Shown piece after piece: positions 23,393 through 35,056 of a DNA stretch of 35,056 bases; position 1 is the stretch's first letter; every line of letters starts with the position of its first letter. The stretch is from Verrucomicrobiales bacterium. Its GTDB lineage: Bacteria > Verrucomicrobiota > Verrucomicrobiia > Methylacidiphilales > JAAUTS01. The stretch spans positions 1 to 35,056 of the forward strand of contig JAISDC010000265.1 in the NCBI GenBank assembly GCA_031265105.1, given 5' to 3'. The notes under the pieces were generated by a model. That model had not been told where the DNA came from. It was given only the letters and a program-made list of their open reading frames with translations, and did not search any database. Both the position numbers and the translations under genes were made by a program.

Positions 23393-25819
23393 ATGAATCC
23401 ATCCATAATAAACAAACTAACCCTAATATTAACTCTCCTCGCCATCCTCAGCGGCCCACTGGCGGCGCCCTGGCCGGCGTCAGCGGCCACCAGAATTATG
23501 ATTGGCGGCACCCTGGCGGAAGCCGATGCCGGTTACACCCCCAGAGTCGTCGGCGCCGACAGTTGGTCGGCCATCATGCTCGTGCAGGGCGCTCAGTACA
23601 GCGGCACGCGGATCACGGCTGAAAGTTCGATTGACGCCACGGCCTACCCTGAGGGCAGCAAAGCGGTTTGGGCGAATGCCAGCGAGGTGTTCCTTTATAG
23701 CAGCACCATTGCCACAACCGGGTTGGGGGCCGATAGCGTTTTCCTTCACAACGGAGCGATCGGTTGGCTGGAAAATACCACCGTCACCAGCTCCGGCAGC
23801 ATGGCCGCGTCAGTGCGGGTGCAGCACAACGGCAATCTGACCGTCATCGGCGGCACTATTGCCGCCACCGGCAGCAGCGCCACCCCTGTGTTGGTCCATA
23901 ATAACGCCAAGCTCAACGTGAAGGACGCGGTCATTATCAGCAACAATAACCAGGCCGCTGTAACGGCGCTGAGCGGCGGAGAGGTCGGGTTGCATGATAC
24001 CAGCATTCAAGCTCCAGTCACGGGGCTGTCGGTCTCAGACGGCCGGATTTTCGGCAATAACCTGGCAATGACCGGCGCAATTTCGGCGAGTAACAACGGA
24101 GATATAAAACTGCAAGACAGCGTCGTGAGCGGCACCGCCAGCATAATCAGCGTGCACAGCAACGGCTCAGTGACCGTGACCGGCGGCACCTTGACCAGCA
24201 CCGGCAGCAGCAGGAACGTGGCACTCATCCGCGGCGACGGCACCATCAATCTCGACAACGTGGACACCGCCGCCGCCGGCGGCATCTCCACCACCGGGAG
24301 CTTTACCGGCACCGCCACCGTCAACCTCAGCGGCGGCAGCGGCCTCAACGGCGACGCCATCAACAGCGGCAGCGGCGCGCTGACCGTGAACCTCGATCAC
24401 GGCACCATGCTTGGCAATGTTGCCAACCAAGGCGACGGCACGCTGACCATCATCCTTGATAACGACTCAATCGGCACCGGCGGCTTCGCCGGCGGCAACC
24501 TGATCACGGGCAGCGACAGCGGGTGGACCTTCACCAAAGACAGCCACGGCAACTACGGCGAGAATAACGGCGTGTGGAACATCGGCGATTATGAAGTCAT
24601 CTTCGACAACATGATTCACAGCGGTACCGTCACCATCAGCGTCAACAGCGACACCGGCGACGGCGGCTCCATCACCATCACCGATACCGCTGACGGTGAG
24701 GGTACCGTTCACATCAACACCACCGGCAACGGCCAGGCCGACCCGAACAAAGTTCTCCCCGGCATCGTCAGCGGCGACGGCACGGAACACTGGCAATGGG
24801 ATCCCATCGACTGGGGTATCGACACCATCATCAAGGACGGCGACCACTTCATCAAAAACGGCACCAGCCCCGCCGGTGCGGTCTTGAACAGCAGCGTGGC
24901 GATCCAGCAAGCCATGTGGTTCGCGCAGCAAAACAGTTTGCTCAAGCGTATGGGCGAGTTGCGCTATGGAGCGCGGGCGTCCCGCCCGCCAGCGGGCGAG
25001 ACGCCCGCGCGCCATATAATTGAAAACATCTGGCTCAGAAGCTACGGCCAACAGCTCAACGTCGGCAGCAAAGTTTCAGGCAAAGCCTACGAACAACTCA
25101 TCTATGGCGTCGATCTCGGCACTGACCATAAGTTCACCATCAGCGCTGACAGTGACTTGTACTTGGGCGTGTACGCCGGCTACGGTCGCAGTGATATAGA
25201 CTACCGCACCCCCGGCACTGACGGTGAGATTAACAGCTACTACGGCGGCCTCTACGCCACTTGGCTCCACGCCAGCGGCTTCTACATCGACGCCACCTTC
25301 AAAGCTGCCAGTGTCAACAACGACTTGAAAGCCCCCTACGGCAGCACTCAACTCACCGCCAACTACAGTGACGTCAACATCGGCGGCAGCCTCGAAATCG
25401 GGAAGAAGTTCACCTTCGCCGATGATTGGTTCATCGAGCCTCAGTTCCAAGTCAACTACCTCCACATCCTCGCCGAGGATTACACCGCCGGCCCGATGAC
25501 CATCAGCGCCCAAGACCTCGACGCCCTGCAACTCCGCATCGGCAGTCTCTTCGGCAGAACCATCAACCTCACCAACAGCGGCGCATTACAACCTTACGTG
25601 AAGATCAGCGGCGTAGAAACCATCAGCAGCGGTGGCACCCTGCGCAACGGCTACCAACACACCCGCGCCAACACTGACGGTGCCAGAGCCGAACTCGGCG
25701 GCGGCCTCATCTGGCAACTCGACGCTAACAATCAACTCCACCTCGACTACGAAGCCACCTTCGGCGACAAGTACGACAAACCCTGGGGCCTAACAGCAGG
25801 CTACCGTCACCAGTTCTAA
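23393..25819 (+). CDS. Autotransporter outer-membrane beta-barrel protein
   Basis: An 808-residue type V secretion-like protein. Residues 1-32 are a signal peptide (IINKLTLILTLLAILSGPLA, ending WPASAA). The passenger (about 33-510) is a pertactin-like parallel beta-helix of short repeats such as NLTVIGGTIAATGSS and SVTVTGGTLTSTGSS. RMGELRYG, the usual junction, is followed by IWLRSYGQQLNVGS and a 12-strand-type barrel ending TAGYRHQF with the terminal Phe of outer-membrane proteins. Between junction and barrel, residues 526-541 are encoded by an inserted palindrome (24971-25010). No protease motif is visible. A hairpin at 25856-25886 follows the stop. Confidence 0.93.
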   Translation: MNPSIINKLTLILTLLAILSGPLAAPWPASAATRIMIGGTLAEADAGYTPRVVGADSWSAIMLVQGAQYSGTRITAESSIDATAYPEGSKAVWANASEVFLYSSTIATTGLGADSVFLHNGAIGWLENTTVTSSGSMAASVRVQHNGNLTVIGGTIAATGSSATPVLVHNNAKLNVKDAVIISNNNQAAVTALSGGEVGLHDTSIQAPVTGLSVSDGRIFGNNLAMTGAISASNNGDIKLQDSVVSGTASIISVHSNGSVTVTGGTLTSTGSSRNVALIRGDGTINLDNVDTAAAGGISTTGSFTGTATVNLSGGSGLNGDAINSGSGALTVNLDHGTMLGNVANQGDGTLTIILDNDSIGTGGFAGGNLITGSDSGWTFTKDSHGNYGENNGVWNIGDYEVIFDNMIHSGTVTISVNSDTGDGGSITITDTADGEGTVHINTTGNGQADPNKVLPGIVSGDGTEHWQWDPIDWGIDTIIKDGDHFIKNGTSPAGAVLNSSVAIQQAMWFAQQNSLLKRMGELRYGARASRPPAGETPARHIIENIWLRSYGQQLNVGSKVSGKAYEQLIYGVDLGTDHKFTISADSDLYLGVYAGYGRSDIDYRTPGTDGEINSYYGGLYATWLHASGFYIDATFKAASVNNDLKAPYGSTQLTANYSDVNIGGSLEIGKKFTFADDWFIEPQFQVNYLHILAEDYTAGPMTISAQDLDALQLRIGSLFGRTINLTNSGALQPYVKISGVETISSGGTLRNGYQHTRANTDGARAELGGGLIWQLDANNQLHLDYEATFGDKYDKPWGLTAGYRHQF
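24971..25010. repeat. 40-bp palindrome inserted in frame in the autotransporter gene
   Basis: GCGCGGGCGTCCCGCCCGC (24971-24989) and GCGGGCGAGACGCCCGCGC (24992-25010) pair with one mismatch around a 2-base loop. The sequence is read in frame as ARASRPPAGETPAR. The same GCGCGGGCGTCCCGCCCGC word is known to me as an intergenic repeat of Verrucomicrobia. It is far more GC-rich than the flanking codons, as expected for an insertion. Confidence 0.88.
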
Positions 25820-25920
25820 ACCACGAATAAACACGAATTGACACGAATAACATGCAAGAGGCAACCGCTGACCGTGGTTGCCTCTTTCATTAGTGTCCAT
25901 TCGTGTCAATCCGTGGTTAA
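25818..25920. repeat. Nested palindrome after the autotransporter (CCACGAAT outer, GAGGCAACC inner)
   Basis: The outer arms AACCACGAATAAACACGAAT and ATTCGTGTCAATCCGTGGTT are imperfect members of the CCACGGAT repeat family. They enclose a perfect inner hairpin, listed separately. The structure begins at the autotransporter stop codon. Confidence 0.7.
25856..25886 (+). terminator. Hairpin AAGAGGCAACC / GGTTGCCTCTT after the autotransporter
   Basis: Perfect 11-bp arms at 25856-25866 and 25876-25886 enclose a 9-base loop that carries the CGCTGAC word. It lies 37 bp after the stop codon. Stem strength and position fit a transcription terminator, though the T-run is short. Confidence 0.65.
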
Positions 25921-31773: not shown

Positions 31774-32754
31774 ATGAAAACTCCTGTCCGTGTTGCTGTC
31801 ACCGGTGCCGCCGGTCAAATTAGTTACTCACTGTTATTCCGCATCGCCTCCGGCGCGATGTTCGGCCCCGATCAGCCGGTTATCTTGCAATTAATTGAAG
31901 TGCCCGTGGAGAAAGCCATGCAGGCGCTCGACGGCGTGGCGATGGAACTGGAGGACTGCGCGTTCCCGCTGCTCAAGGGGCTGGTGCTGACCAGCGACGC
32001 GAAGGTCGGCTTCAAGGACGCTAACTGGTGTCTGCTAGTTGGCGCCAAGCCGCGCGGCCCCGGCATGGAGCGCGCCGACTTGCTCAAGGACAACGGCAAA
32101 ATCTTCATCGAGCAGGGCAAAATCATCGACGCCGTCGCCGCTGACAATGCGCGCGTCGCGGTGGTCGGCAATCCCGCCAACACCAACTGCATGATTGCCG
32201 CCAGCCAGGCCAAGCGCCTGCCTGCCGAGCGCTTCACCGCGATGGTGCGCCTCGACCAAAACCGCGCGCAGAGCCAGCTCGCCAAAAAGGCCGGCGTGGA
32301 CTTGACCGAGGTCAAAAACATCTTCATCTACGGCAACCACAGCCCGACCATGTATCCCGCCTACCCGCACGCCACCATCAGCGGCAAGCCGTTGCTGGAC
32401 GTGATTGGCGACAAGGCGTGGCTGCAAGGCCCGTTCTGCGAGACGGTGGGCAAACGCGGCGCGGCCATCATCGCGGCGCGCGGCGCATCGTCAGCGGCCT
32501 CGGCGGCGAACGCGCTGGTGGACCACGTGCGTGATTTGACGACCCCCGGCCGGGTGCACTCCGTGGCGGTGAAATCGAACGGCGCCTACGGCTTCGACCC
32601 GAACGTATGGGCCGGCCTGCCGGTGCGCACCACCGGCCCCGGCTCCTACGAAGTCATCACCAACTACCGCATGTGCGAGTGCTGCCAGGCGAAACTCGCC
32701 GTGACTAACCAGGAATTGGTTGAAGAGCGCGCGGCGGTGTCGGCGCTGCTGTGA
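31774..32754 (+). CDS. mdh: Malate dehydrogenase
   Basis: NAD-dependent oxidation of malate to oxaloacetate in the TCA cycle. The 326-residue protein has the Rossmann start [70 protein letters not shown], and the active-site His in [11 protein letters not shown]. It belongs to the type that resembles Thermus and eukaryotic cytosolic MDH (about 327 residues). In this type the Asp-His pair region usually reads LDHNRA; here it is LDQNRA, a change that is not in the catalytic His. A strong hairpin follows (32787-32820). Confidence 0.95.
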
Positions 32755-32786: not shown

Positions 32787-32820
32787 CCGCCGCTGACGGT
32801 GATTTCACTGTCAGCGGCGG
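32787..32820. terminator. Hairpin built from an inverted pair of ACYGTCAGCG words
   Basis: CCGCCGCTGAC (32787-32797) and GTCAGCGGCGG (32810-32820) are perfect 11-bp arms with a 12-base loop, followed by TTTGTTGTTG. It lies 33 bp after the mdh stop and between convergent genes (mdh and the XRE regulator). Read on each strand it holds CGCTGACGGT and ACTGTCAGCG, so it is an inverted pair of the dispersed word, as DNA uptake sequences pair to form terminators in Neisseria. Confidence 0.85.
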
Positions 32821-32904
32821 TTTGTTGTTGATGAAAATGGCTACGAAAAAAACTGAGGTGATTTGAATGTCGCTGACGCTGACGCTCACCGTCAGCGGGA
32901 ATTT

Positions 32905-33257: not shown

Positions 33258-35056
33258 ATGAAGACCAACCATATATCCAACTGGGCCGTGTTGCTGCTGA
33301 CCGTCAGCGGCATGACGGCATTGCCGCTGACGATGTCGGCACAAAACCTAATAGTGAACGGCTCCGCTGTCACCCAAACCGGAACCCATTACGAAAGTTC
33401 CAGCGCTGAGGCGGCGTTGTTCATCAGAAGCGGTACGTTCAACGGCACCAACATCATACTGACCGGGACCGGACCGGTCGGCGAAAATGCTTCAAACGCG
33501 GTTCGCCTGGATAGCGGCGCCGCGTTGTCCCTGTATGATAGCACGATCAATGCGTTCAACGGCTTTGCCCTGAACACCAACGCGGTGACGGTTTACTTAC
33601 AGAACACCAATGTTTCCTCGGAGCTTAGCCGTGGCATCAACGTTTATAATACCGCCAGCGTGGTTATGGTTGGAGGCACGGTCAGCTCCGCCGCTAACTA
33701 CGCCTTGTTCGTGGACAACGCCTCCAGTTTTACGGGAACCGATGTCAGCGTAGTCTCGGGTAGCAGTAGCGGGGTTTATGTGAACCGTTCCGGTTCGGCG
33801 GTATTTCGCGGGAAATTGCAAGTCACGGCCGACAGGTCGGCTATTATCGCGACACAAGGCGGCTATGTCGATTTGGGCGAGGACGCGCATTTGACGGGGC
33901 GTGGTGGCATCGAAGTATTCACGAGCGGCACTGTGGTCGGCACTAACACGGAAATCAACGGCGGCGTGGGCGGTTCGGGTAACGCCATCAGCATCAGCGG
34001 CACTGGCAGCGGACTGGTGTCACTGGTCAATCCGACCGCGCAAAACAGCGGTTCCGGCTCATTGATCTCGTTTGGCGGTAGCGGCACCAACACGGTGGAA
34101 ATTGCGGGCGGCAGCCTGACGGCCTCCGGCGATAGCATGGGTATCGTCGCGTCAGGTGCCTTCAATACCGTCAAGGTCAGCGATGGCGGCAGTATCACCG
34201 GCGATGTCACCGGCAGCGGCAGCGCCACCATCGACCTCGGCCTGACCGGCACCAACAGCGGCATCACCGGCGACATCACCGGCAGCGGCGACAGCAGCAT
34301 CACCATCACCGGCAGCGACGGCGCCATCATCACCGGCACCGTCAGCGGCAATGAGAACGCGGTCATCGACCTCACCGTCACCGGCAGCGACAGCATCTTC
34401 ACCGGCGACGTCATCGCCAGCGGCAGCAGCAATGTGACTGTCACCGGCAGCGACGACGCGACCATCACCGGCAACATCACCGGCAGCGAAGACAGCACCA
34501 TCACCATCGGCGGCGACGGCAACATCATCATCGGTGACCTCACCGGCAGCGGCAGTTCAACTATTGACCTCGACCTGACCGGCTCGAACAGCGGCGTCAC
34601 CGGCGACATCACCGGCAGCGGCGACAGCCAAATCGTCATCACCGGCAGCGACGGCGTCATCATCACCGGCACTGTCACCGGCAACAATGATTCCGTCATC
34701 GACATCACCGTCACTGGCAGCGATAGCATCTTCACCGGCGACATCACCGCCAGCGGCAGCAGCAATGTGACTGTCACCGGCAGTGACAGCGCGACCATCA
34801 CCGGCAACATCACTGGCAGCGAAGACAGCACCGTCACCATCGGCGGCGACGGCCCCATCATCATCGGTGACGTAACCGGCAGCGGCAGCGCCACCATTGA
34901 CCTCGACCTGACCGGCACCAACAGCGGTGTCACCGGCGACATCACCGGCAGCGGCGACAGCAAAATCACCATCACCGGCTGCGACGGCGCCATCATCAAC
35001 GGAACAGACCCCGTCAGAACTCAATACCCCCTCACGAATCGCGTCTCCGGCCGCGA
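33258..35056 (+). CDS. Repetitive autotransporter/adhesin-type protein, 3' end beyond the window
   Basis: An open frame from ATG 33258 to the window edge (599 codons, no stop). It opens with a signal peptide (NWAVLLLTVSGMTALPLTMS, cleavage probably after SAQ). The first 310 residues are a degenerate beta-helix resembling the complete autotransporter at 23393, with units such as NAVTVYLQNTNVSSE. From residue about 320 it becomes a highly regular repeat of 111 residues built of five ~22-residue strands such as ITITGSDGAIITGTVSGNEN. Expected downstream parts (barrel) are not in the window. The last 60 bases depart from the repeat pattern. It is divergent from the XRE gene. Confidence 0.85.
   Translation, partial: MKTNHISNWAVLLLTVSGMTALPLTMSAQNLIVNGSAVTQTGTHYESSSAEAALFIRSGTFNGTNIILTGTGPVGENASNAVRLDSGAALSLYDSTINAFNGFALNTNAVTVYLQNTNVSSELSRGINVYNTASVVMVGGTVSSAANYALFVDNASSFTGTDVSVVSGSSSGVYVNRSGSAVFRGKLQVTADRSAIIATQGGYVDLGEDAHLTGRGGIEVFTSGTVVGTNTEINGGVGGSGNAISISGTGSGLVSLVNPTAQNSGSGSLISFGGSGTNTVEIAGGSLTASGDSMGIVASGAFNTVKVSDGGSITGDVTGSGSATIDLGLTGTNSGITGDITGSGDSSITITGSDGAIITGTVSGNENAVIDLTVTGSDSIFTGDVIASGSSNVTVTGSDDATITGNITGSEDSTITIGGDGNIIIGDLTGSGSSTIDLDLTGSNSGVTGDITGSGDSQIVITGSDGVIITGTVTGNNDSVIDITVTGSDSIFTGDITASGSSNVTVTGSDSATITGNITGSEDSTVTIGGDGPIIIGDVTGSGSATIDLDLTGTNSGVTGDITGSGDSKITITGCDGAIINGTDPVRTQYPLTNRVSGR
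34221..35000. repeat. 333-bp tandem repeats (about 2.3 copies) in the adhesin gene
   Basis: The word for S-x-T-I-D-L-D-L starts at 34221, 34554 and 34887, exactly 333 bp (111 codons) apart. The copies encode nearly the same protein, from TIDLDLTGTNSGVTGDITGS to TIGGDGNIIIGDLTGSG, with scattered synonymous and conservative changes. Inside each copy are five shorter strand repeats that share the ACCGGCAGCGGC and GGCAGCGAC words. Confidence 0.93.

Follow-up and report, generated by a model that had tools for sequence, protein, structure and literature searches.

A dispersed word resembling DNA uptake sequences in a genus of Verrucomicrobiota, and its facing copies in a probable terminator behind mdh

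The hairpin that follows the malate dehydrogenase gene (mdh) in this Verrucomicrobiales genome is probably an intrinsic terminator built from two facing copies of an uptake-sequence-like dispersed word. We also think it reasonably likely that, with this word, genome-wide DNA uptake sequences have arisen independently for a third time, in a (probably termite-gut) genus of Verrucomicrobiota where the word has split into two dialects and where facing pairs have been recruited as terminators. We observe the anatomy of the hairpin, the copy number of the word, its presence on both strands, its origin by substitution, its restriction to one genus, its dialects, the enrichment of its facing pairs at gene ends and the T-tails behind them. 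The window, by which we mean the whole stretch of 35,056 nucleotides that was analysed, is contig C8 of a 3.0-Mb genome in 289 contigs (G000). Gene statistics were taken from a 785-kb sample of its contigs (26%), with gene calls from our own simple caller, which missed the small gene beside the mdh hairpin.

The preliminary description reported two exact arms with a 12-base loop, lying between convergent genes and both copies of the word. The arms are exact (CCGCCGCTGAC, 32787-32797, and GTCAGCGGCGG, 32810-32820, separated by 12 bases), mdh on the plus strand and an XRE-type helix-turn-helix (HTH) gene on the minus strand flank the hairpin (Table 1), and each arm matches the word over at least 11 bp. 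The loop itself is shorter than was described: in the RNA fold, pairing runs further inward through GGTG/CACT with one G.U, so that the stem has 15 bp and a 4-nt loop is left. The pairing of CCGCCGCTGACGGTG with CACTGTCAGCGGCGG is predicted at -31.4 kcal/mol (z -7.7; no shuffle as good), and the hairpin begins 33 nt after the mdh stop. It is best in the mdh direction, because RNA from the opposite strand has A.C in place of the G.U, which interrupts the stem (-27.8 kcal/mol). The tail, TTTGTTGTTG, is T-rich directly after the stem, yet it is a broken and imperfect U-tract. In a pattern scan of the last 10 kb of the window, this hairpin ranks first among terminator-like sites, with the most pairs and the most G-C pairs. 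No Rfam family was found at the mdh hairpin. The second inverted cluster that had been noted nearby is present at 32871-32897, although its hairpin is weaker (-18 to -18.5 kcal/mol; z -2.7 on the plus strand and -3.4 on the minus strand) and is without a good T-tract.

Table 1. Features around the terminator-like hairpin behind mdh (positions in the window)
Feature	Position	Strand	Basis and remarks
mdh, malate dehydrogenase	31774..32754	+	NF003916, E 2e-142; transcript that the hairpin would end
Terminator-like hairpin, two facing word copies, 15-bp stem, 4-nt loop	32787..32820	+	Sequence, RNA fold, conservation in L029 and L032
First arm, minus-strand word CCGCCGCTGACGGTG (reverse complement of CACCGTCAGCGGCGG)	32787..32801	-	Sequence, motif logo
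Second arm, plus-strand word CACTGTCAGCGGCGG	32806..32820	+	Sequence, motif logo
T-rich tail TTTGTTGTTG, 7 T in 10	32821..32830	+	Sequence, terminator scan
Second cluster of facing words CGCTGACGCTGACGCTCACCGTCAGCG; hairpin weaker, closer to the HTH gene end	32871..32897		Sequence, fold
Convergent XRE-type HTH gene, 74 aa	32905..33129	-	Translation; HTH_3 E 1.8e-12

In the window, 11-bp inverted repeats separated by loops of about 3-20 number five. Among 30 Markov-shuffled sequences, 27 had none or one such repeat, two had 2 and one had 5. At 25856-25886, soon after a gene ending at 25819, a perfect 11-bp stem (AAGAGGCAACC/GGTTGCCTCTT) with one word in the loop region forms a second kind of word-bearing terminator-like hairpin. 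A word pair in the opposite arrangement lies at 33302-33332, where the signal peptide of a large, repetitive protein of surface type is encoded, with a similar pair at the corresponding place in locus L032. Also in the window, 12-mers of the type GTATGCGCATCA / TGCGCATCAAGG occur 7-8 times and are probably a separate repeat.

The hairpin is kept, with compensatory changes, after mdh in two related loci, L029 (Mdh 98% identical) and L032 (89%). All 15 stem pairs are standard in all three sequences, even where the bases differ: pair 12 is G.U in the window, G-C in L029 and A-U in L032, pair 11 reads C-G, U.G and C-G in the same order, and pair 1 reads C-G, C-G and A-U. The L029 and L032 hairpins fold at -33 and -35 kcal/mol (z about -9). 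Three other relatives (L030, L031 and L033) have, as judged by eye, unrelated ordinary terminator-like hairpins after mdh instead, and the word pair is therefore a replaceable way to build a terminator there.

The consensus of the word is TCACnGTCAGCGnC, about 12-14 bp, and its logo over 785 kb of the genome reads T(.49)C(.77)A(.88)C(.56)n G(.75)T(.69)C(.99)A(.92)G(.94)C(.94)G(.96) n C(.54). Logos were anchored on the word; a free EM search was discarded when it drifted to codon periodicity. The form GTCAGCGGC has 1217+1218 copies against 53+57 for its reversed control (2435 vs 110). Both strands carry the word, without bias in the per-contig strand balance (chi2 64 on 51 df, p 0.10), and its spacing is mildly clustered (CV 1.22). 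The logos reveal neither conserved flanks beyond about 14 bp nor AT-rich flanking tracts. Two further repeats were seen beside the word: tandem arrays of an 8-base unit, CGTGAGCG (AGCGCGTGAGCG has about 100 matches in 785 kb), form a separate family at L009, L010 and L155 of G000 and also in G002, and CACCGGCAGCG / TGCCGGTG words, over-represented in G000 and G001, could be either a lesser form of the main word or a by-product of protein repeats.

The word is confined to one genus. CACnGTCAGCGnC has 2018 copies in G000 and 1808, 1154, 960 and 25 in the congeners G002, G003, G004 and G001; G005 and G006 have 3 each, and among 384 genomes of the class no genome outside the genus has more than 68. 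When 80 mdh loci were screened for further dispersed words, nothing comparable turned up outside the genus. The closest named relatives are the metagenome-assembled Verrucomicrobiales genomes Gx481_bin192, Cf509_bin41, Pc512_bin95 and Gx481_bin94, which, from their sample codes and the nature of the data set, we take to be probably termite-gut samples; bins of this kind may be impure.

G001 was placed in the same genus but is poor in GTCAGCG (0.40/kb) and rich in GTTAGCG and ATTAGCG. Its dialect, TCGYSRTTAGCGnC (logo TCG[CT][CG][AG]TTAGCG n C), keeps the layout of 14 positions and departs from the main word chiefly at positions 3 and 8. Over 50.8 kb of orthologous alignment, 11 of 46 aligned dialect words of G001 share column and strand with a word of G000, against 0.06 expected at random. 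The random-placement null ignores shared ancestry, so the excess reflects homologous sites that changed dialect, not independent gain.

The preliminary description expected inverted pairs to be enriched at gene ends, and on the sampled contigs of G000 they are. CGCTGAC-(3-20)-GTCAGCG occurs 9 times within 150 nt after called stops, against 1.5 expected (6-fold, Poisson p 3e-5), and 14 times against 2.4 when one base may be degenerate, whereas the opposite arrangement has no occurrence there. Neither arrangement was found within 150 nt before the starts of called genes, and inside genes the facing pair is found 15 times (29.8 expected). A smaller sample of G002 (219 kb) does not have the gene-end excess (1 vs 2). 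With gene ends disregarded, the whole genome of G000 has no excess of facing pairs (274, against 301 in the opposite arrangement), but that of G001 does (134 against 88). The facing-pair excess in G000 is confined to gene ends, and only gene-end position and T-tails separate the two arrangements there.

T-tails test the arrangements more sharply. They were scored as T5 within 8 nt after a hairpin, and distinct hairpins were counted by hand from listings. Facing and opposite arrangements with such tails number 40 vs 3 in G001, where the difference is clearest, 13 vs 5 in G000, 11 vs 4 in G002, 12 vs 1 in G003 and 20 vs 5 in G004, or 96 vs 18 in the five congeners together, and both outgroups have 0. 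The mdh hairpin falls outside this count because its tail is broken. Two examples of T-tailed word hairpins, each between convergent genes, are GCCGCTAACCATGACCTCACGGTTAGCGGCTTTTTT in G001 and AAAAAGCCGCTGACGATGGCAGTCATCGTCAGCGGCTTTTT in G002, and each dialect appears to build its putative terminators from its own word.

Within genes, the word is selected at the DNA level. Called genes contain the word 7-mer 1978 times, against 467 with synonymous codons shuffled within genes (about a 4-fold excess) and 180 with codon order shuffled. Five of the six reading frames are used, and the sixth would give an in-frame TGA. Between G000 and G001, whose orthologues have a median of 72.6% amino-acid identity, the 135 aligned word sites contain no gaps; at 13 the word is exact, and at 104 the encoded residues differ. 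None of 39 sites aligned to G006 is gapped either. Copies of the word were thus made by substitutions, amino-acid changes included. The same kind of alignment test showed that the Haemophilus USS are not insertions (PMC1626085). The longest genes that lack the word fall into two kinds, strongly constrained ones (nusA, dnaN, pta, glpX, ketol-acid reductoisomerase) and ones of mobile type (MuF, HipA).

By our rough gene calls, word density is 3.25/kb in genes and 1.87/kb between them. In-gene density rises with GC content, and thus the word, being GC-rich, may simply be better suited to coding sequence. A single tRNA-adjacent integrase island (L159, G000:C66, 6455-18500) encodes an integrase, AbiEii and an AAA_13 protein; over its 12 kb we count 5 words against an expectation of 36, although its lower GC (about 0.5) by itself lowers word density; its flanks have 31 words in 6.5 kb.

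Most likely, the word is a motif that the DNA-uptake machinery of the genus prefers. Fragments bearing it would be taken up more often and return to the genome by recombination, and point mutations that create or improve a copy would then spread by molecular drive, a model discussed in PMC7811141. The abundance of the word would most likely result from such biased uptake and recombination. Copies that happen to stand face to face behind a stop codon could be kept or refined as terminators. We infer that RNA polymerase would terminate at the hairpin, that a pilus-type receptor would bind the word and that uptake would be biased towards DNA carrying it. The genome encodes ComEC, DprA, PilB/PilT-type (T2SSE-family) ATPases and a secretin. 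Word-poor relatives have the competence and type IV pilus genes just as this genome does, so this machinery permits the uptake reading rather than supports it.

The word might be read inside the cell, as a Chi-, KOPS- or parS-like signal for recombination, replication or the nucleoid, and be merely reused by terminators. Chi-like sites share with the word their small size, asymmetry and large numbers; they are rare in foreign DNA, and the scarcity of the word in the integrase island (one lower-GC example) fits this too. Chi and KOPS typically follow replication direction, however, whereas the strands are balanced here contig by contig, and we rejected a strand-polar signal of that kind on this ground. 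A length of 12-14 bp with graded flanks, a density of about 1/kb, often at places where residues differ from the orthologue, and the appearance and change of dialect within one genus, unlike known segregation signals, make an intracellular role unlikely. It is highly improbable that the word serves a defence system as a label of self DNA, for example as the target of a BREX-like or phosphorothioation modification. Some such systems typically recognise asymmetric cores of 6-7 bp, and copies are few in the single foreign island that was examined. Defence recognition sites, however, are as a rule avoided or neutral rather than driven to a density of one per kb, and such a label would explain neither the facing pairs at gene ends nor the graded 14-bp flanks.

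An ordinary terminator hairpin that looks like the word by chance or through GC-rich composition is improbable as well, even though the three relatives without the word pair do have unrelated terminator-like hairpins after mdh. Against it stand the match of both arms to the word over at least 11 bp, the 6-fold excess of gene-end pairs in one arrangement only, and the use by the other dialect of its own word. It is scarcely conceivable that the word is a REP/MITE-like mobile repeat, or that it reflects in DNA a repeat at the protein level. The copy number is high and some copies are in tandem (GTCAGCGTCAGCG), but the flanks are not conserved past about 14 bp; the gap-free alignments at 135 word sites against G001 rule out a mobile repeat at these sites, and a protein-level repeat was rejected on the use of five of six frames.

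The uptake-sequence reading is favoured by our analysis, not proven. The open-access literature that we searched yielded no account of uptake sequences in Verrucomicrobiota. Neisseria and Haemophilus use such words as marks of self when selecting DNA for uptake. Uptake tags of this type have so far been described only in the Neisseriaceae and Pasteurellaceae, the two families for which strong uptake preferences are described (PMC7811141). A 2026 terminator survey of thousands of genomes names the same two families for terminators made from uptake words, with Verrucomicrobiota going unmentioned (PMC13020248). If the reading is true, it would add an independent example from a different phylum, in which a single genus carries the word and close relatives differ between two dialects. 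It would provide a separate lineage in which to test molecular drive, the question of the receptor and the reuse of uptake words as terminators. The dialect split would also be a direct comparison for finding the receptor, that is, the minor pilin that changed with the word.

The assignment to the uptake-sequence class made in the preliminary description is partly supported: by copy number, occurrence on both strands, origin by substitution, dialects and gene-end pairs, but not by distribution, since the word is denser in genes, unlike in Neisseria and Haemophilus. The uptake sequences of these two genera are under-represented in coding sequence (PMC7811141); such a distribution is usual for the class, though not part of its definition. 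Like the DUS of Neisseriaceae (PMC3630211, PMC2397512), the word has about 2000 copies per genome on a 12-mer scale and on both strands, dialects that differ at few positions, and facing pairs as terminators, putative ones here. DUS are rare in recently acquired DNA; the one island here, of lower GC, has 5 words vs 36 expected. It differs in its unrelated sequence and phylum and in being denser in genes, whereas Neisseria copies are mostly intergenic. An uptake effect and a receptor, ComP, belong to DUS; for this word both are proposed. With the USS of Pasteurellaceae (PMC1626085, PMC7811141, PMC1852404) it shares a frequency of about one copy per kb, substitution rather than insertion, two dialects in one family, a preference for one facing arrangement and participation in terminators, which are putative here. 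Its sequence is unrelated to theirs, and it is without AT-rich flanking tracts and not depleted in coding DNA.

In Neisseria and Pasteurellaceae, Kingsford et al. (PMC1852404) found that facing uptake words form terminators, with one of two arrangements preferred. Their argument, that a frequent word together with its complement offers stems ready for use, appears to fit the word of this genus too. The pairs described here resemble these Rho-independent USS/DUS terminators (PMC1852404, PMC13020248) in their position behind stops, in the T-tract after the stem and in the strong arrangement bias. They differ in that the motif has its extended half turned towards the loop, and therefore the T-tails lie outside the word and arise separately.
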